A stretch of DNA of 59,054 nt from a bacterium (GTDB lineage: Bacteria > Patescibacteriota > Saccharimonadia > Saccharimonadales > UBA4665). Below, piece by piece: positions 6,974 through 36,030 of the stretch. Under the pieces are notes generated by a model. It had not been told where the DNA came from. It was given only the letters and a program-made list of their open reading frames with translations, and searched no databases. The stretch lies in NCBI GenBank assembly GCA_027448765.1, contig DAIDMV010000003.1, positions 1-59,054 on the forward strand, given 5' to 3'. The first letter of the stretch is position 1. The number at the start of each line of letters is the position of its first letter. The position numbers were made by a program, and so were the translations under genes.

Positions 6974-7862
6974 TAGTTGGTAGTGAAGATTTGCTCTGAC
7001 ATTGTAAAGAGCAAAAAAGACTTTTGTCCTGACAATCAGGACAAATAATTAATAATTTATTACATTTTTTATTAGAGCAATTGGCATAATTAGAGGTTTT
7101 TTTCTGACAATGACAACATTTAGCAATATCTTTAGCTGTAGAACTAAACTTAAGACCCATTCGACCATCAAAAGTATACATAGAACCCTGCCAATAACCA
7201 TCATCACCATAAACAGAACCATATTTTTCAATTCCACCATCAATCTGATAAACGTCTTTAAAACCATATTTTTTCATCAAAACAGTCAAAACCTCACATC
7301 TAATGCCACCAGTACAGTACGTCACGACAGTTTTATCTTTTAAATGATTATATTTTGTTTTTTTTAACTCATCCTTAAATTCTCTAGTATAATTTATTTC
7401 TGGCACTACGGCATTTTTAAAACGACCAGTCTCAGCTTCATATTGATTTCGACCATCAAAAAAAACTACGTCAGATTTTTTATTCTTAACAAGATCATGG
7501 ACTTGTTGAGGGCTTAAATGCTGACCACCACCAACAAGTCCACGATCATTAACTTTCAATACATCTTTTAAGCCAAAAGTAACAATTTCATCTCTAACTT
7601 TAACACTCAAACGAGGAAAATCTTGGTCAGTGCCATCACTCCATTTATAACTTATGTCACGAAATTGATCATAGGTTTTATTATTTTTAACATATTGTTT
7701 CAAATTAACTTCTTGACCACCTAAAATACCGTTAATGCCATGTTCAGCAATAATAATCCGACCTTTTAAATCTAAGGATTGAGCTAATGTCTGTTGCCAT
7801 AAACGAATCGCTTCAGGATCTTTAACAGGTCTAAAGATATAAAATAATATAATCTTATACAT
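6966..7862 (-). CDS. trhO: tRNA U34 hydroxylase TrhO (rhodanese family)
   Basis: 298 residues. An N-terminal ferredoxin-like domain contains GRIIIAEHGINGILGG, typical of TrhO/YceA. The rhodanese domain follows with catalytic Cys in VVTYCTGGIRCE (about residue 182). The C-terminal end is cysteine-rich (CCHC, CSNKKC, CPDC, CSLQC), like the metal-binding tail of many TrhO proteins. TrhO makes 5-hydroxyuridine at wobble position 34 of tRNAs. TATAAT at 7869-7874, six bases before the ATG and inside the end of the upstream gene, suggests a leaderless transcript. It overlaps uvrC by 8 bases. Confidence 0.88.
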   Translation of the reverse strand: MYKIILFYIFRPVKDPEAIRLWQQTLAQSLDLKGRIIIAEHGINGILGGQEVNLKQYVKNNKTYDQFRDISYKWSDGTDQDFPRLSVKVRDEIVTFGLKDVLKVNDRGLVGGGQHLSPQQVHDLVKNKKSDVVFFDGRNQYEAETGRFKNAVVPEINYTREFKDELKKTKYNHLKDKTVVTYCTGGIRCEVLTVLMKKYGFKDVYQIDGGIEKYGSVYGDDGYWQGSMYTFDGRMGLKFSSTAKDIAKCCHCQKKTSNYANCSNKKCNKLLIICPDCQDKSLFCSLQCQSKSSLPTNA

Positions 7863-23673: not shown

Positions 23674-24594
23674 CTAATTTTTATTATTTTGTAACTCTTC
23701 TCGTTGTTTTTCAAGTTGGTGTCTTAAAACATACATCTGGTGTCGGCCACCAATCCAAAAAGTTATAAAAATTAACGGCACCAAAACAATAATCGGCCAC
23801 CAAATGATTTGTGGCTTTTGGGTGGCGGCTAATTGAGCACTTTGATTGGTTGATTTTTTTTGATTTAAGTTAATAACAGCCCCACTAACTACAGCTACAA
23901 CTTCTAAAAAAGCTTGCGTATGATTGGAATCGCTAGCCCTAACTATGACATTATAAACACCTGATTTTGAATAAACATGATTGACACTAAACTGACCAGC
24001 AAATTTTTCCGATAATAATTCAGTTGAAGAGCCATCACCCCAATTAACACTGACAGCATAAGGTCCAAGACCACCAGTAAGACTAAAAGGCCAAGTCAAA
24101 GTTGAACCAGGATTAGAGCCTCTTTCGGCATCATTACTTGTTAAGCTAACTACTGAACCAAATTTAGCTAATTGAATATTATTATAATTAACAATCACAC
24201 TATTGGAATCTGGACCAGCTTCATCTAAATTATTGTAATCTATGGCCACTAAATCGTTTTGACCAGAAAATAAATCAACTGGTATATTGTAACTACCGTT
24301 TTGACAATTAATAGCACCAACAAAAACATTATTAGAAAAAATTTTAATCAATAAATTACTCGGACATAATCCAGTTACATTGACTGGCATGGTAGTAAAA
24401 CTAGCCCCACTAACCGGAGTGGCTATAGTAGCGCTTCGAGAAGGTGGTGGACTAGGAATCGTACCCTGTAAACCAATTGATCCATTTGATGTTTGATGAG
24501 CTGGTATCGTTAAGGCCATGACCTGATATGAATTAAAAAAAACAAGCCCTAATATTAAACTAAAAGATATTAAACTAATTTTAAAATTCAACAT
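23674..24594 (-). CDS. Exported PKD-domain protein with C-terminal membrane anchor
   Basis: 306 residues. Signal peptide (about 1-27, ending VMALT), an Ig-like stretch, then a PKD-like domain (about 160-235: VSVNWGDGSSTELLSEKFAG and FSVNHVYSKSGVYNVIVRASD, matching the WGDGT and HxYxxxGxY motifs). One membrane helix (about 265-283) and a short charged cytoplasmic tail end it. PKD domains serve adhesion or protein contacts at the surface. It is the last gene of the exported cluster 23674-28902 and lies 13 bases upstream of mnmA. Confidence 0.78.
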   Translation of the reverse strand: MLNFKISLISFSLILGLVFFNSYQVMALTIPAHQTSNGSIGLQGTIPSPPPSRSATIATPVSGASFTTMPVNVTGLCPSNLLIKIFSNNVFVGAINCQNGSYNIPVDLFSGQNDLVAIDYNNLDEAGPDSNSVIVNYNNIQLAKFGSVVSLTSNDAERGSNPGSTLTWPFSLTGGLGPYAVSVNWGDGSSTELLSEKFAGQFSVNHVYSKSGVYNVIVRASDSNHTQAFLEVVAVVSGAVINLNQKKSTNQSAQLAATQKPQIIWWPIIVLVPLIFITFWIGGRHQMYVLRHQLEKQREELQNNKN

Positions 24595-24636
24595 TTGTAT
24601 TTAAGTATAAACGAAATAAAAATTTAAAACTATAAA

Positions 24637-25644
24637 CTATCGACGTCTAGACTGTCTAATAATTCGTTCTTTATATGCTTTTAATACTTTCGGAAAAACA
24701 AATATAAAAAATAGAACTAAAATAATAAAAATAATAATTATCATGATTAGAGTAAAGGGAATAACATAAAAGGTAGTTGAAGCTGATAAAGTTTGACCAG
24801 AAGAACCATAACCAAAATTACCTTCAACCGTATAAATACCAAATGAACTCATTTTTTTTAAAGGAATAAAGAATCGTCTAATACTGTTCGGTAAAACATT
24901 ACCTGGAGGAGTAACATTGTTGACGTTGTAGACCGATATAATTTTATTAGAACTAGTTTTTAAAAGTACCTTTCCGAAAGGAGCAACCTGAATATTGCCT
25001 TCATTTTGAAATCTAACCACGGCATTAATATGCTGATTTGATGTAAAGAAATTACTTGGTGTACCATTGCTAACATCAAAACTAGCAATTGATAATTGTT
25101 GTTTAATTTTTCCAGGAACTGTTAATAAAACAATTGATCCAACTGAACCAGATAGACTAACGGTAGTATTTTTACCACCTAAACTAGCCGGACCAAATCT
25201 AACCACTCCATAATAACCACCACCCGGAGTATTACTAGGAATTTTTAGAGTAACTGGAATTTCTTTTTGTTGACCTGCTCGCAAAGTAAAGTTAGGAATT
25301 GGTAAGGCGAACTTTTTTAATCCATGTTTTTCATGAATATTATTACCAATTAAAATTGATGGCTGACCGGTTTCGTTGGAATTAGCCACAAAGTCATTGA
25401 CTACACCAGATAAAGTTTCAGACACAGACGTAATATTAGTCACATATAGATCAATAATTTGCGATTGACCAGGTTTAATAGTCACATCACTCCTTAAAGG
25501 TGAAACTTGAACACCATCAGCCGAAGAAGCTGCATTAGCCGTAGTAATATTAGCTAAACTAAGCCCAATAATCGCACAAATTGACACTAATAAAATTAGC
25601 CAATTTGAATATTGTTTTAACTTGAAAGTTGTTATCCTTATCAC
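24637..25644 (-). CDS. DUF916 / WxL-interacting-protein-like surface protein
   Basis: 335 residues: signal peptide or anchor (about 13-38), two Ig-like beta domains, a C-terminal membrane helix (about 297-320) and a basic tail (RIIRQSRRR). The beta domains contain VSPLRSDVTIKPGQSQIIDL, then IPVTLKIPSNTPGGGYYGVV and NEGNIQVAPFGKVLLK. This order is that of Firmicutes DUF916/DUF3324 proteins, which hold WxL-domain proteins at the cell surface. Three related secreted proteins are encoded just upstream, as in WxL loci. The similarity is judged from motif order only. Confidence 0.65.
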   Translation of the reverse strand: MIRITTFKLKQYSNWLILLVSICAIIGLSLANITTANAASSADGVQVSPLRSDVTIKPGQSQIIDLYVTNITSVSETLSGVVNDFVANSNETGQPSILIGNNIHEKHGLKKFALPIPNFTLRAGQQKEIPVTLKIPSNTPGGGYYGVVRFGPASLGGKNTTVSLSGSVGSIVLLTVPGKIKQQLSIASFDVSNGTPSNFFTSNQHINAVVRFQNEGNIQVAPFGKVLLKTSSNKIISVYNVNNVTPPGNVLPNSIRRFFIPLKKMSSFGIYTVEGNFGYGSSGQTLSASTTFYVIPFTLIMIIIIFIILVLFFIFVFPKVLKAYKERIIRQSRRR

Positions 25645-25685
25645 AATTATTATTATCTTATCAAAAGATAGATGATTTACAAAAT

Positions 25686-26759
25686 TTAAAAATTAGCTAT
25701 ACAAACATAATTAACAGTTGTGACATATATACCCGGCGCCTGATTTTGTGCTACATTGACTAAATAGCTAACTGTATATAGTCGATAGTTTTCAGGCTGA
25801 TTAGAACCAGCAATATTAGAATCATTTTGAAAAGCATAGAAATTTGGCTCATTATAATTTAAAAAAGGTTGGCCGTGCCCTGGGCCGGTTGGGTTTTGGC
25901 CAACTGTTGGCGAGAGATTGGCCACTAAATTTAAGCCGAACTGTGAAACTCCTGGTCTAGACACATTAGCCGGATATAAATTCGGAATTTGATTAATACC
26001 CGAAACTAGTCCTTGACCATAAGTTGAAATAGTATAACCATTTTGACCGTTAGTTCCGACCAGTAACTGAGAAGTAGCTGTTTGCGAAACTTGAGATGAA
26101 AAATTACCAAAGTTAATATTATGTCCAGAACTATCCTGACAATTTAAATTACTAATCTTAACCGCACTGCAAAAATACAAAAAAGGTGGAACTTCAGCGT
26201 TCACAGCTAATTGATTATTCAAAGCATAGGCTAAACCACCATGATTAATAGTAGTTGTTGTCGATGGCGTAGAGCTTGAAAAAGTTTCAATTCTGACATA
26301 TTCAGTGCCTATAGATGAAGCATTGGTAATATTGTTAAAAGTATAACTGACAGATCCTGGTGTAGTTGGACTAGTAGTACGACTAATGACAATTAAATTC
26401 TGAGAGGTGGCTGGTAATAAATTAAAATTAGTTTGTCCAGTTTGAGCAATTAAATTTGCGTTCGCCATATTAATACCACCCGGAATCGTACAGTTATCGT
26501 TAAACAATGGTGAATTTGAGCAAAATTGAAATTCAATCGAGCCAACATTATTAGAAGACGTTAAATTAAAACCAATTTGAAATGTGACATTTGTAGCCGA
26601 AGTTTGACTAGAAGATAATTTAATATAACGATTATTAAGTTCAGCACCATATACCGTGGCAAAATTAAAATTATAGATCAAGACACTAATAAAAATAGCC
26701 AAAACATAAAATATCAATAAAAAAAGTGACTGTTTATGAAATAAATTAGTTAAATTCAT
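25686..26759 (-). CDS. Secreted surface protein, paralogue 1
   Basis: 357 residues with an N-terminal signal or anchor (about 12-35). The body is Ser/Thr/Asn-rich and beta-type with cysteine pairs (FCSNSPLFNDNC; FCSAVKISNLNC). Its end, with SQFGLNLVANLSP and YTVSYLVNVAQNQAPGIYVT, matches the ends of the two neighbouring exported proteins. No sortase motif and no C-terminal anchor, so it must be held by a partner, perhaps the DUF916-type protein 41 bases downstream. No enzymatic motif is visible. Confidence 0.7.
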   Translation of the reverse strand: MNLTNLFHKQSLFLLIFYVLAIFISVLIYNFNFATVYGAELNNRYIKLSSSQTSATNVTFQIGFNLTSSNNVGSIEFQFCSNSPLFNDNCTIPGGINMANANLIAQTGQTNFNLLPATSQNLIVISRTTSPTTPGSVSYTFNNITNASSIGTEYVRIETFSSSTPSTTTTINHGGLAYALNNQLAVNAEVPPFLYFCSAVKISNLNCQDSSGHNINFGNFSSQVSQTATSQLLVGTNGQNGYTISTYGQGLVSGINQIPNLYPANVSRPGVSQFGLNLVANLSPTVGQNPTGPGHGQPFLNYNEPNFYAFQNDSNIAGSNQPENYRLYTVSYLVNVAQNQAPGIYVTTVNYVCIANF

Positions 26760-26782
26760 TCATAATTGCCTAAATACCTAAT

Positions 26783-28072
26783 TTAAAAAGTACCAGTAGC
26801 AATTAAATCCATGTTAGCCGTATAAATACCAGCCGGTGTGGTTAAAGCAGCTGTGGCGGCAAAAGTATAAGCACTGTCGACTCGATAGCACGGTGAAGAT
26901 GTTGAAGCGACAGTATCACCATAAGTTGAATCAACGTTAGTGGCATTCATACCATAATAGACATCACTTGGAGTAGTAGCACCCTGTAAAGGAGTAGTAT
27001 CGTTGCTCGACGAACCACCCGTAAAAGTATAGTTAGATGAGCTATAATATGTTGAAGCTGGTGTTAAAGATCCAACACCATTTGTATCATCTACGCTTGG
27101 ACCAACTGCCATACCAAAATCAGCCGTACCAGCAACAATAGCCGATGCAGTCGAACCAATCGCAGGAATAGCACAAGACGTACCTCCATTAGCACTTAAG
27201 CCACCACAACCAGTACTATTACGCATAGCTATGACCGCTCCACTAGTAGCGTTGGTTGATAACTGAGAATAAACCGTTCCACTATCTACCTGAGTTTGAT
27301 CTAGGATTGGCGTTGGACTACCGTGACCTAGCGTCAGATCTGGTGAAACATTGGCATTAGGATCAGAACAATCATGAGTAGATGTCCAGCTGCTTGGAGC
27401 ATCACCTGAAACACAAAAACTTATTGTTTCTTGAACTCGAGCTGTAATTGATATGATGTTGTTAGTTGATAAAGCAATACCACCATAATCTAAGTAATCA
27501 CCTGGTAAAGTAGCGCTAGAATAAGTACCATAAGTCGTATTAGCAAAAGTATAAATACGAGCATAAAAAGCACCTAAAGTTGATGGATTAGTCACTCCAG
27601 CAATCGTGAAAGTTTGAGCACCTGCCGCTGCTGCAGTCGCATCATAAGCAGCAAATTGAGATGCACTTCCCATGGTTGCACCAGCAGTATTAGTACCGCC
27701 AACTGTCCAACCACTTGAACCAATACCACCAGTAACTGTAGACGAAACTGTTACACCGCTAACACTAAAGCCAGTCGGCGCCGTACAAGTATCAGCGATA
27801 ATTGGACTATTAGAACAAAAATCAATCACAACACTTTCTGCCGCCTGAGTAGTTGTAAAACCAACTTCATAGGAAACATTCGTTCCACTACCAACGCCGG
27901 TTGTAATCGTTCCAGCCGAAACACCCGAATCACTCATAGTAATACTTCGACTAGCCATTTGGGCCGCTAAAACCGGCTGACTACCGAGAAGTGGCATCAG
28001 TAAAGCTGCAACAAAAGCAACCGTTAAAGAAGTATAAAAAAACTTCCTAATTTTTTTAATATTATCTTGCAT
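26783..28072 (-). CDS. Secreted surface protein, paralogue 2, Ser/Thr/Gly/Ala-rich
   Basis: 429 residues. A clear signal peptide (about 1-37, LLMPLLGSQPVLAA) is followed by a long Ser/Thr/Ala/Gly-rich beta region. DFGMAVGPSV and the closing TTPAGIYTANMDLIATGTF align with the end of the other two paralogues. FCSNSPIIADTC parallels FCSNSPLFNDNC of paralogue 1, so these two are closest. A strong ribosome-binding site (AGGAGAGAAC-ATG) suggests high expression, and the composition suits an abundant surface-layer or pilus-like component. No anchor is seen. Confidence 0.72.
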   Translation of the reverse strand: MQDNIKKIRKFFYTSLTVAFVAALLMPLLGSQPVLAAQMASRSITMSDSGVSAGTITTGVGSGTNVSYEVGFTTTQAAESVVIDFCSNSPIIADTCTAPTGFSVSGVTVSSTVTGGIGSSGWTVGGTNTAGATMGSASQFAAYDATAAAAGAQTFTIAGVTNPSTLGAFYARIYTFANTTYGTYSSATLPGDYLDYGGIALSTNNIISITARVQETISFCVSGDAPSSWTSTHDCSDPNANVSPDLTLGHGSPTPILDQTQVDSGTVYSQLSTNATSGAVIAMRNSTGCGGLSANGGTSCAIPAIGSTASAIVAGTADFGMAVGPSVDDTNGVGSLTPASTYYSSSNYTFTGGSSSNDTTPLQGATTPSDVYYGMNATNVDSTYGDTVASTSSPCYRVDSAYTFAATAALTTPAGIYTANMDLIATGTF

Positions 28073-28158
28073 GTTCTCTCCTGTGTTTGTGATTTTTGTT
28101 TTTTACACTGAATTAAAGATATCATATTTTTTTTTTAAAACAAAGTAGTTATCCACAA

Positions 28159-28902
28159 CTAGTAAGTTGAAGTAGCTACTAAATCATCATTAAAAGTATA
28201 TACACCACCTGGCGTTATGTGTGAAATGTTAAAAATATAAGAAATAGTATAAAGTGTTTGGCCACTACTTTGATCTGAATATGCAATAGTTGAATTAGGC
28301 TGATACATAAAAAGATTAGGTGAATCGTAATTACTAGAAACTTGACCATAACTAAAAGCACTACTTGGTAATTGACTAGGATTAGCACCAAAACTAATTG
28401 GTGAGGTATTGGCAACTAAATTCATACCAAATTGTTCTAAACCCGGCTGAGCGGTAGTTGGCGATGTTAAAGGTGTTAAAGTAGCCGAATTATTAGACGG
28501 TGGCGGAGAAACTGTTTCCACCTGATAACCACTAGCTAAATAACTTGAAACACTAAACTGAGCGGTGGTAGTAGTAGTTGATTTAGTGCTTAAAGTGCCT
28601 AAATCAACACTAGTATTGTTGACATTAATAGAAATAAACGGCGATCGATTAGTGTTAAAACCCGCTTGAGCTTGATAATTAGAACTTTTAGTATTGCCGA
28701 CCGCTATTTCTCCAGCAGAAGTTTTAGCACAATAATTAGTTGAACATTGGTTTAAATTACCCCCAGCTCCAAAAAAAACATTATGTATCTGATAATTAGT
28801 CGATGAAGCCGACTCGGCTTGAACTAAATTTGGCAATAAAAAAAACAACAAAGAAATAACTAGGCAACTCAAAAAAACAAAAAATTTATTTTTTATAAAC
28901 AT
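28159..28902 (-). CDS. Secreted surface protein, paralogue 3
   Basis: 247 residues, signal peptide about 1-29 (LLPNLVQAES). Contains EQFGMNLVANTSP and the C-terminal YTISYIFNISHITPGGVYTF, shared with the other two paralogues. The N-terminal half differs: it has one cysteine pair (CSTNYC) and lacks the FCSNSP motif. It ends 86 bases upstream of paralogue 2 and starts opposite the plus-strand fibre-like gene, with a 68-base divergent gap. Confidence 0.7.
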   Translation of the reverse strand: MFIKNKFFVFLSCLVISLLFFLLPNLVQAESASSTNYQIHNVFFGAGGNLNQCSTNYCAKTSAGEIAVGNTKSSNYQAQAGFNTNRSPFISINVNNTSVDLGTLSTKSTTTTTAQFSVSSYLASGYQVETVSPPPSNNSATLTPLTSPTTAQPGLEQFGMNLVANTSPISFGANPSQLPSSAFSYGQVSSNYDSPNLFMYQPNSTIAYSDQSSGQTLYTISYIFNISHITPGGVYTFNDDLVATSTY

Positions 28903-28970: not shown

Positions 28971-30001
28971 ATGCCAGACAATGAAACAAAACCAGAAGAA
29001 ATAGATTTAGAATCTAACAGTTCAAGTCTTGAAGATAATGTTATCGATGCTACGGGTGGTAATGATTTAGAAAGTTCAAGTCTTGAAGATAACAACAATC
29101 AAAACACTCCAGCTAACGACCCGTCAAAAAATCCGGCAACCTTAAACTCTAAAAATAAACCAAAATTAAAGGATAAATTAGCTAAATTTAATATTTATTT
29201 AATATTATTTGGTTTAGTAGTGGTTGTAACTATTGTAGTAGTTGTGATTACTTATTTACAGAGCCAAACTCCTGTTCAAAATTCAACTAGTCTTAAAAAT
29301 CAAAACCTGACTCAAAATAGTCTCAAACAGTTAGCCGCTAATGATTCAACAGTTGGAGCTCCTAAACAAGATTTAAACGTTGAAGCTAATGCTGTTTTTG
29401 CTGGTCGAGTTTTAATCAGCAATGGCCTTCAAGTAGCCGGAGGCGAACAAATTAATGGCGGACTGGGTTTAACAAGCTTAACCGTTAAAGGTACTGGTAA
29501 TTTTCAACAGTTAAACAATAGTGGTAATTTATCAGTTAATGGTACTACAGCCCTACAAGGTTCGACCACTATTTCAGCTAGTTTACAAGTTAATGGTAAT
29601 GCTAACTTTAACGGCAATGTTTCTTCTCCTCAAATAACTACTAACTCTCTACAACTCAGTGGCAATCTCAATATCTCACACCACATTAACGTAACTGGTC
29701 CTTCACCGAATTCCAAGACCTTGAGTGCTATTGGTTCTGGTGGCACATCCACAGTCAATGGTACTGATACGGCTGGTAATATTAATATTAATACCGGCAC
29801 TAATCCAAGTGCAGGTTGCTTAATTACAGTAAATTTTAATATACCCTATAGCTCAACACCGTACATCGTTGTTTCACCGATTGGATTAGCTAGTAGTTCA
29901 CTTCATTATTATCTGGAACGGAATCAAACTTCTTTCAACGTTTGTTCTGGTTCAACGCCACCGAGTCAAGCTAATATTAGTTTTGATTATTTTATTATCG
30001 G

Positions 30002-30005
<4 letters not shown>
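28971..30005 (+). CDS. Fibre-like exported protein with N-terminal membrane anchor
   Basis: 344 residues. The cytoplasmic N-terminus (about 75 residues) is acidic and carries a direct repeat of SSLEDN. A membrane helix follows (about 77-97). Outside, residues 140-240 hold repeats of the type LSVNGTTALQGSTTISASLQ and NGNANFNGNV, a beta-solenoid pattern like phage tail fibres and common in CPR proteins. A C-terminal globular part (about 245-344) has two cysteines. It may serve as an adhesin. It ends overlapping the epsilon gene by four bases on the opposite strand. Confidence 0.65.
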
Positions 30006-32492
<2,487 letters not shown>

Positions 32493-32509
<17 letters not shown>

Positions 32510-33965
32510 GACTCTCTTCCTCTTTACTTGACGAACCAGATGGTCCTGATTTCAGACATGTTTGCTTCAACTGATCACGAACAGATTCAAAATCTTTATC
32601 TTGATTAACCATTTTTGAAGATTTCTTAACTTCATCTTTCATTTTAGCAATATCAATCATTTCACCTTCTGCTAAATTAAGAATTATATCCATCATCATT
32701 TCTTGTTCCAAAAACGAAAAAGTCTGGTTTGGTGCTTGAGTTAATAATTCCATAATATTATGCCCAATATCTAATGCTTTTTTAGCTTCAACAGCTAACT
32801 CAGAACCAAAATGAGAAAATTCTTCAGCCTGTCTAAAATCTGCCAAAATTTTCAAAGTTTGAGAAGCTAATTTTTTTTGACGATCATCATGACCGACACC
32901 ACCGGCACGAGTTACACTTAAGCCAATATTAAGAGCTGGTCGAACACCACTTCTAAAAGTCTCCATATCCAATATCCATTGACCGTCAGTAATTGACATA
33001 ATGTTAGTTGGTAAATAGGCTGTAATATCTCCATTGGCGGCGTGAACAACCGGAATAGAAGTTAGGCTTTTACCTGTACTGTCTAATCGACCGGCTCTCT
33101 CCAACAAAGAAGAATGAGCATAAAACATATCACCTGGGTATGAATCGCGTCCAGGGCTAACCCCAGAAAGCAAGGCAATTTCTCGATATGCATGAGCGTG
33201 TGAAGTTAAATCGTCATAAATCACAATCGTATCTTGATCTAGTTTTTGCCAGAAATATTCAGCTATTGAAGACGCCACATAAGGTGCTAGATAATTTATA
33301 ATTAAAGATTCAAACATAGTAGACACTACTACTACCGCCTTTTTTAAACTGTCTGTTTCTTTTAAGCGCGATAAAAGAGTATCGACATCAGTTCGACGTT
33401 TAGCAATTAAACAATAAACTACTAATTGATCAGTGTTTTTTTGATTAATAGTTAACTGTGTCACCAATGTACTCTTACCTGACTTACTGTCACCTATTAA
33501 AGCCATTCTCTGACCTTTTACAATTGGAAACAAAGCATCAATAGCTGTCACACCAGATTCGACCTGATCTTCTACTAAACGACGGGTATAAAGTGGTGGT
33601 GCAGTATTAAAAATTGGCCAAGTTGCTTCTGAGGCAATAGGACCTAAGCCATCCAATGGTTCACCCATAACTGACACTACTCGACCAACAAATTCTTTGC
33701 CAACCTTAGCTGTTAATTGATTATCCTCTAAAACTACAATCATTCCAACATTTAGCTCTACGACACCTAGATGTAACACCATCACATCGTCGGGATTAAC
33801 TTGTTGAACAAAACCCTTTGACCCGTCACTAAATAAAACCAGGGAATGAACACTACAGGGCTGTAAACCCCTAACTGATATTAAAAATTTATTGACTGCA
33901 ATCACCTCTCCAACTGGATTATTGGCACTAACTAAACTATCAAAATATTTATTTCCAGTCGGCAT
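32493..33965 (-). CDS. atpA: F1-type ATPase alpha-like subunit
   Basis: 490 residues. Walker A variant GDSKSGKSTLVTQL (usual GDRQTGKT), GRDSYPGDMFYAHSSLLERAGRL, and the arginine-finger segment NIGLSVTRAGGVGHDDRQKK are all present. The N-terminal helix that docks delta in ordinary alpha subunits is much shortened: the beta-barrel begins by residue 18. The C-terminus ends in a charged, Ser-rich tail of about 45 residues. It is expected to alternate with beta in the head. It overlaps delta by one base and gamma by 17. Confidence 0.92.
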
Positions 33966-34450
33966 TAATTAACTTCCTTAATTAACTTAACTAAATCTGA
34001 CGTTAAATTATTAAAATGATTTTTTAAAGACAAATCAAAAAACTTATTAGGTGTTCTAAGGGTAATGCCGGCACCTATTATTGGTTGTAAGCCGACTGTT
34101 AACAATAAAGTACTGTCAATATTACGCCTAAACCAATCAACTAATTTTTCCAATAATAATAAATTAGGCTCAACGCTAAAACCAATATGGACAATTGGGG
34201 CTTTTGTAACTAAGGTTTCAGTCGATTTTTTAAGCCAATCAACCTGATTCATGTTAGTTAAATCTAAATTATTTAATTCCGTTAAATTATCCAACGATTT
34301 AGAAGTATGCGGTAATTTAATCTCACTATCTGAATTTTTAATTTTTATTTGCACCAAATATTCTTTTAAGTCATTAATTTCATTTAAAACTAAATCAATA
34401 TCTGTGGTTGTCACGATCGATAAAGGTAAAATCAATTTCTTAGGCTCCAT
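33965..34450 (-). CDS. atpH: F1-type ATPase delta-like subunit
   Basis: 161 residues and divergent. The C-terminal third, LLTVGLQPIIGAGITLRTPN, followed by FFDLSLKNHFNNL, matches the delta signature (xxVDPxLIGGxxxxxGxxxxDxSxxxxL). The N-terminal six-helix domain that caps alpha is not recognisable, in line with the shortened alpha N-terminus. The call therefore rests on the C-terminal motif and on position between b and alpha. It overlaps the b gene by 11 bases. Confidence 0.72.
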   Translation of the reverse strand: MEPKKLILPLSIVTTTDIDLVLNEINDLKEYLVQIKIKNSDSEIKLPHTSKSLDNLTELNNLDLTNMNQVDWLKKSTETLVTKAPIVHIGFSVEPNLLLLEKLVDWFRRNIDSTLLLTVGLQPIIGAGITLRTPNKFFDLSLKNHFNNLTSDLVKLIKEVN

Positions 34451-35066
34451 GATTAACGTCCTCTTTAATCGCCTCTTTGTTTTTTTCTAAATCAGCTACG
34501 ATAAACTGTAATTGATCATTAAGATCAATTTGATCACCGATTGCCATTAAAATATAATGATTAACGATGCTGGCCAGATGTTGCTCAAAATTATCTAAAA
34601 CTTGCTTTTTTTCTAAATCAATTTGTTTTTGAATTTCATTAGATAAAACTTCTCTTTCTTTGTCGATCGCTTGGTTAGTTTTTTCAATAGCACTAACAGC
34701 TAATTGTCGGGCATCTTCAAGTGATTGTTCATATTTTTTAAATTCAGTTTGTAAATTTTTAGTCACTTCATTTTTAAGCGATTCATTCAGTTGTGAAGTT
34801 GTTAATTGCAAGTCTTGTTGTAAAAACATAGCATTTTCAGAAATAATTTTTTCAAAATGAAGACGACCTCGATTTCTTAATTCTTCTCTAAAAGCATCAT
34901 TAAAAATTTGGGCTACATTTTCTTTAATAGCTTGCTCAGATAATTGATTGGTCGATGACCCTCGTTTTTTAGTATTTTTTTGAGATTTTAGAACAACCAC
35001 TAAAACTATAGCTAGGCCAAGTAAATCTACTAAAACAAATAAACTACTCTGTAACCAATTGTTCAT
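34440..35066 (-). CDS. atpF: F-type ATPase b-like (stator) subunit
   Basis: 208 residues, longer than the usual 155-170. One N-terminal membrane helix (about 7-28) is followed by a continuous charged helix (about 45-175, heptad-like) and a C-terminal part that can contact delta. This is the architecture of the peripheral stalk; sequence identity of b subunits is always low, so position in the operon carries weight. It overlaps delta by 11 bases and follows the c-like membrane protein after 61 bases. Confidence 0.78.
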   Translation of the reverse strand: MNNWLQSSLFVLVDLLGLAIVLVVVLKSQKNTKKRGSSTNQLSEQAIKENVAQIFNDAFREELRNRGRLHFEKIISENAMFLQQDLQLTTSQLNESLKNEVTKNLQTEFKKYEQSLEDARQLAVSAIEKTNQAIDKEREVLSNEIQKQIDLEKKQVLDNFEQHLASIVNHYILMAIGDQIDLNDQLQFIVADLEKNKEAIKEDVNHGA

Positions 35067-35127: not shown

Positions 35128-36030
35128 TTAAAGCTTAAGTAAAAGATAGACTGCAAAAATGCCAATTACAAATATGATTATGCCAGCGGCTACAGTTTGA
35201 ACTAAAGATCTGATAATAGATTTTCTAGATAGTGGATTACGGCCAATAGCTATCATACCCGCTCGAATGCCTGAGTAAAGTAAAACTGCCGTTAAAATCG
35301 TACTAACTAGTAAAACAAATAGACCTAAATAAATTCTAGCTGCATCAACTGGTTTAGCAGCGATAGTAATTGCGGCTTTAGCTAGAAAACTTGGTACATA
35401 ATCGACAGATTTATTAAGTAAAGGGTTCTTTTTAATGGCAAGTTGAACCGAAACAAGACCAATATTAACTTGCTCTTTTTTACCTGATAAAGTAGTTACA
35501 TTAACCGTCCCAACTACGTTAGACCTACCGCTAAAATTACTGGTAGCTTGACCTAAAATAATTGATTGATTTTGGTCGGCGACCATACCAATTCCGTTTA
35601 AAGACGAAATAGTAATATATTCTCCGGCGACAACTGGTCCATCTTGATTAGAAACTAAAACATTATATCTACCAGTCGATGCAACGTAAACTTGTTGTTT
35701 AGTCGAATTAACTGGACTAAGCGCAACCGGCGCAACATTAGCCGGCACAACCACACCTAACATACTAGCTATATTAGACTGACTTAAAGGAATAACTTGA
35801 TTAGAAATTTTTGCAGTTAACTGAACAATCATTCCAGTTTGAATTGATGAAGCCGCACCATAACTTTGAATAACAGCTTGAGAGATTGAACTACTACTGT
35901 TTGAATTATTAACAGCTGGGGCTGATTTAGTCTTACTAGAACTAATCGCTATAACTGGTGCTGATAATCCTAAAATAAAAATAATGACTATCGCAATAGA
36001 TATATATTTATTTTTTAATTGATTGAACAT
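35128..36030 (-). CDS. Membrane protein with extracytoplasmic beta domain and c-subunit-like C-terminal hairpin
   Basis: 300 residues at the place where subunits a and c are normally encoded. A signal anchor (about 8-29) leads to an outer domain (about 30-220) resembling phage-fibre/peptidase-G2-type beta domains (NQDGPVVAGEYITISSLNGI, QSIILGQATSNF). Residues 233-300 form a helical hairpin whose cytoplasmic loop is AGMIAIGRNPLSRKSIIRSL. The loop resembles the polar loop of ATP-synthase c subunits (A-R-(Q/N)-P), and the topology, both hairpin ends outside, is the same. The second helix has no Asp or Glu, so it cannot carry ions the usual way. It probably anchors or is driven by the F1-like head; homology to c is an inference. 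Confidence 0.6.
   Translation of the reverse strand: MFNQLKNKYISIAIVIIFILGLSAPVIAISSSKTKSAPAVNNSNSSSSISQAVIQSYGAASSIQTGMIVQLTAKISNQVIPLSQSNIASMLGVVVPANVAPVALSPVNSTKQQVYVASTGRYNVLVSNQDGPVVAGEYITISSLNGIGMVADQNQSIILGQATSNFSGRSNVVGTVNVTTLSGKKEQVNIGLVSVQLAIKKNPLLNKSVDYVPSFLAKAAITIAAKPVDAARIYLGLFVLLVSTILTAVLLYSGIRAGMIAIGRNPLSRKSIIRSLVQTVAAGIIIFVIGIFAVYLLLKL

Follow-up and report, generated by a model that had tools for sequence, protein, structure and literature searches.

The stretch of DNA analysed here, referred to as the window (59,054 nucleotides, from a bacterium of the Saccharimonadales, Patescibacteriota), carries on its minus strand an operon with the gene order X-b-delta-alpha-gamma-beta-epsilon (36030–30002), the features of which are listed in Table 1. 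X is the name given here to the 300-aa product of the first gene, ORF 35128–36030 of the minus strand. The order is that of a canonical ATP synthase operon without subunit a and with c replaced, X lying directly before b. An earlier reading, made from the sequence alone, had put X in the place of both atpB and atpE. This held only in part, as X takes the place of c alone and a is simply missing: no subunit a was found in the operon, nor was a 12-TM membrane protein found between X and epsilon. That reading also has to be refined in that the genome does have normal a and c genes; they belong to a canonical operon that is complete (I-a-c-b-delta-alpha-gamma-beta-epsilon) and lies on another contig.

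Table 1. Features of the F1-like operon, of protein X and of the convergent neighbouring gene
Feature	Position	Strand	Basis or remark
X, c-derived subunit (signal peptide, outer domain, TM hairpin)	35128..36030	-	
Signal peptide or N-terminal membrane segment of X, residues 1–28, ending ...APVIA	35947..36030	-	hydropathy
Extracytoplasmic beta-rich domain of X, about residues 45–215 (~170 residues)	35386..35898	-	giant surface proteins contain related modules
c-subunit-like TM hairpin of X, residues 230–300	35131..35343	-	profile matches; two helices in AF2 model, pLDDT about 70
GRNP polar loop of X, residues 263–266	35233..35244	-	homologue alignment
Gly283 of X (P+17), position of the ion-binding Glu in related c subunits	35182..35184	-	
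b-like peripheral-stalk subunit, one N-terminal TM	34440..35066	-	hhalign to canonical b 85.7%; TM by hydropathy
delta (OSCP)-like subunit	33965..34450	-	hhalign to canonical delta 92.8%; PF00213 E=0.02
F1-like alpha	32493..33965	-	PF00006 7e-67
F1-like gamma	31649..32509	-	FEP foot motif conserved
F1-like beta	30346..31647	-	all catalytic residues present
epsilon, beta-sandwich domain only, C-terminal helices absent	30002..30349	-	PF02823 7e-14; residues 37–114 align to epsilon models
TM-anchored bactofilin-like/beta-solenoid protein, convergent neighbour of the operon	28971..30005	+	PF04519 1e-4 (below cut-off)

In 65 F1-like operons, the P-loop, the catalytic Glu, the Walker B Asp and the Arg finger of alpha are 100% conserved, and the FEP motif of gamma is conserved in 96–100%. 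The equivalent of FEP in E. coli gamma is YEPD, which forms the foot contacting the c loops. The window's alpha (380 bits) and beta (407 bits) do not reach the NCBIfam cut-offs for atpA (484 bits) and atpD (463 bits), which the canonical copies of the same genome pass with 715 and 791 bits, respectively. The b-like and delta-like proteins are diverged and were identified by profile comparison.

Within the order, a bactofilin-like gene adjoins the operon in many relatives, and one also lies beside a stand-alone X (L055). Beside the window's operon, also on the minus strand, are five consecutive ORFs with signal-peptide-like starts (23674–28902), possibly a surface cluster; one has a PKD-like stretch and one appears by eye to be of the DUF916 type. 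No type IV pilus genes were recognised by eye beside the operon.

Protein X and its polar loop

Hydropathy indicated three segments in X, at residues 10–28, 233–251 and 280–298, the last two flanking the sequence AIGRNPLSRKS. Three claims of the sequence-only reading thus held: that residues 233–300 are two helices joined by this stretch (also seen as helices in the AF2 model), that the stretch resembles the polar loop of c subunits, and that a signal anchor stands in front, residues 10–28 being either a signal peptide or an anchor. The AF2 model was built from only 4 sequences and is poor (pLDDT 42), usable solely for the two helices of the hairpin. The N-termini of the homologues vary in sequence and keep the same character.

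Four residues of the loop in a row, G263-R264-N265-P266, are invariant in the 39 order-level homologues, and in the phylum-wide set N and P show no variation, R being conserved in at least 90%. The loop reads GRNP in 93 of the 101 homologues and RNP in 100 of them, a conservation that exceeds chance.

The outer domain had been likened to phage-fibre or G2-type beta domains, and the resemblance is present but weak: PF23982 matches 11 of the 35 phylum-wide members (best E=0.001), and PF11962 matches a related surface protein, again weakly. Across the phylum, the same domain recurs as a module of giant surface proteins. Two examples, of about 2000 aa each, are encoded at 7006–12963 of L238 and 2992–9012 of L239, one of them also containing Laminin_G_3.

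A c-derived hairpin without the ion-binding carboxylate

Taken alone, X matched nothing in Pfam and, by phmmer, nothing in the PDB, and homologues were therefore gathered to build profiles. A profile of the hairpin only (49 homologues), searched against 177,635 distinct PDB sequences, gave 8 matches at E<=10, all 8 of them c subunits (best 1.6e-4), and a full-length profile of the 35 phylum-wide sequences reached PDB c subunits at E=5.2e-5 with the whole hairpin aligned. The NCBIfam subunit C models match 15 of these 35 members (best 3.2e-6) and 4 of the 39 order-level ones, while PF00137 matches three X loci weakly, below its cut-off (E=0.004–0.06). When the hairpin profile was run on whole genomes, canonical c came next after X, or came up where X was missing; in several genomes (G000, G011, G020 and G032 among them) it ranked first among the remaining matches. 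Comparison by hhalign of the order-level X hairpin alone with c gave 81.5%, but an unrelated KNPL stretch of the outer domain scored nearly as high; because this score is misleading, we did not rely on hhalign for the hairpin and used the wider profiles instead. A scan of viral contigs revealed no relatives. We conclude that the hairpin of X is homologous to F-type c subunits.

As the sequence-only reading had stated, the second helix of the window's X contains no Asp or Glu, and none occurs beyond P+12 in that helix in any of the 101 homologues, whereas in 30/30 c subunits of related genomes a carboxylate is found at P+16 to P+18. The ion-binding carboxylate has been lost in X. Also absent from all 101 homologues, and present in 30/30 canonical c subunits, is the packing motif GxGxGxG of helix 1, which makes a normal tight ring doubtful.

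X therefore shares with F-type c (PF00137) the two-helix hairpin, the cytoplasmic R-N-P loop, homology at the profile level and the place before b, but differs from it in lacking the ion-binding Asp/Glu and GxGxGxG, in carrying a signal peptide followed by an outer domain, and in having no subunit a beside it. Since X is homologous to c and fails two of its defining features, we call it c-derived and not a c subunit. Neither of the two refuting conditions given with the earlier reading was fulfilled: the profile comparison of the hairpin with c subunits found similarity, and the alignment of homologues showed a conserved loop and no conserved carboxylate in helix 2.

Distribution of X and of subunits a and c

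X is present in 151 of 199 related genomes. Full-length homologues were found in distant families of the phylum as well. The X operon recurs across Patescibacteria, and in distant families too X precedes b or delta. Over the 199 genomes, X and the F1-like beta are associated (136/15/15/33, counts tallied by hand; Fisher p=6e-15).

Many genomes also contain stand-alone paralogues of X, remote from any F1 genes. A tandem pair without F1 genes nearby was seen at 7073–9256 of L068, and in G089 (L055) a different contig holds both X and the bactofilin-like gene. In the f114 genomes (L148, L149, L150 and L151), each F1-like operon is flanked by two different X genes. In L064 (G198), a genome rated 99% complete, the operon has apparently decayed, with only X, b and an alpha fragment recognised.

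One alternative is that X works outside the ATPase, as a surface protein that adopted a c hairpin as its membrane anchor and stands first in the operon by chance. The stand-alone paralogues and the several operons without X speak for it. Against it are the location of X ahead of b or delta in families far apart in the phylum, the strong co-occurrence with the F1-like beta, and the invariant RNP loop, found in the stand-alone copies as well, which a mere anchor leaves unexplained. We regard this alternative as unlikely. That X belongs to the F1-like complex is inferred; its place in the operon and its co-occurrence with the F1-like beta suggest this strongly, and we consider it likely.

Among 28 genomes with an X operon, which mostly belong to other families of the phylum, no subunit a gene was detected in 14; in these 14, no normal Fo is borrowed. 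A c above cut-off is absent in 12 of the same 28. These figures bear on a second alternative, an ion pump in disguise, in which the complex would borrow a canonical a, or X would be mixed into a normal c-ring and modulate proton pumping. In its favour, canonical a and c genes are both present in the window's genome. Against it, X has no carboxylate, the operon has its own b and delta, and no a and no c scores above cut-off in at least 12 of the genomes with an X operon, on which account the sharing of canonical a and c was rejected. Such a pump is very improbable.

In about 14 of the 151 genomes with the F1-like beta no X was found anywhere, the operon being otherwise intact; a search of genomes without X with the hairpin profile found canonical c and no X-like hairpin. 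The beta tree requires the X label to change at least 5 times, meaning that X was lost or moved several times. It follows from both observations that X is not strictly required, or has been replaced, in those genomes. Loci with an F1-like operon intact from b to epsilon and no X found there or elsewhere in the genome are L141, L142, L143 and L166–L175.

A putative ion-blind ATPase and its nearest parallels

Our main reading, to which we assign a probability of about 0.58, is that of a second F1-like ATPase with an ion-blind, c-derived membrane part that would transmit force or rotation to an outer domain; its assembly, rotation and output are inferred. X would be a diverged paralogue of F-type c, having lost the carboxylate and acquired a signal peptide plus an outer domain ahead of helix 1. 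This second ATPase of Patescibacteria would be made up of X and the b-, delta-, alpha-, gamma-, beta- and epsilon-like subunits. In the absence of subunit a, no ion coupling through the c/a pathway would be expected. ATP would be hydrolysed by F1, gamma/epsilon would grip a group of X hairpins by their cytoplasmic GRNP loops, and the alpha3beta3 head would be held still by the b/delta stalk, so that torque or force would cross the membrane to the outer domains. These may in turn act on a surface partner, for which the bactofilin-like neighbour and adhesins or fibres are candidates. The earlier proposal of a rotor or anchor that cannot translocate ions but presents an outer domain is thus supported, although the ring and the rotor role remain inferred.

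The main reading rests on sequence, without structural, expression or biochemical data. The absence of GxGxGxG, the roughly 14 F1-like genomes without X, the stand-alone paralogues and the poor AF2 model all count against it. That the outer domains rotate is the most interesting interpretation compatible with the evidence; it is not a result. A bolder version, a phylum-wide rotary motor in which ATP turns an ion-blind, c-derived rotor bearing outer domains with no ion flow, appears to us by a small margin more likely wrong than right.

A static anchor remains possible, though less likely. Here the X hairpins would do no more than fasten gamma/epsilon and F1 to the membrane and to an outer structure, and ATP hydrolysis would drive a conformational or assembly cycle, the outer domains not rotating continuously. 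This is favoured by the lack of the ring motif, by the repeated loss of X while F1 was kept, and by an analogous proposal for the mycoplasma F1-like X0 ATPases, in which ATP use is thought to reset an outer protein (PMC12994834). It is disfavoured by the retention of the b and delta stalk, which a non-rotary tether would not need, and by the conservation of the gamma foot and of the loop as in rotary enzymes.

For the force-transmitting ATPase of the main reading, the nearest functional parallel is provided by these mycoplasma ATPases, namely Type 2 (the gliding G1-ATPase) and Type 3 (MIB-MIP), each an F1-like ATPase found beside the normal one, with a mechanical output proposed (PMC12994834; PMC11864180). 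In the proteins MMOB1650 and MMCAP2_0577, an N-terminal signal peptide is accompanied by a large outer part and a C-terminal pair of TM helices (PMC12994834), an architecture that X also meets, with no implication of homology to X or to c. The mycoplasma clusters include a 12-TM protein, and none of a, b, c and delta has been recognised in them (PMC3369863), whereas the window's X operon has no 12-TM protein but does have b, delta and a c-derived subunit. Against the NCBIfam families MSC_0618/0619 and MMOB1660/1670, the window's alpha and beta score 252–363 bits, and the cut-offs of 520–850 bits are not met.

Two further systems are comparable in part. The F-type ATPase found in Omnitrophota beside type IV pili is non-respiratory, and its beta was reported to cluster with that of 'Ca. 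Saccharimonadia' (PMC10066038); the F1 part in this group has therefore been glimpsed before. The Omnitrophota ATPase shares the F1-like character and the host-interaction context with the X system, but no c-derived membrane subunit is described in the relevant sections of that paper. The N-ATPase (alternate F1F0) is likewise a second F-type operon besides the normal one. N-ATPases have a and an ion-binding c, and alpha and beta of the X operon fall far below the NCBIfam cut-offs for the alternate (N-ATPase) subunits. Our search of the literature on Patescibacteria or Saccharibacteria and ATP synthase found no description of a c-derived membrane subunit. In one Saccharibacterium, the F-type ATP synthase was found by Tn-seq to be dispensable, and the reason for its retention has been asked (PMC10633639).

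If the main reading is true, it would show a route from an ion turbine to a mechanical drive, and it raises the question of whether the two-TM outer proteins of mycoplasmas are hidden c-type rotors too. Patescibacteria make up a large share of bacterial diversity, and the members in culture inhabit the surfaces of other cells. For them, an additional F1-like ATPase of wide occurrence, whose rotor subunit is unable to carry ions and exposes an outer domain, would be a candidate surface motor for contact with the host.
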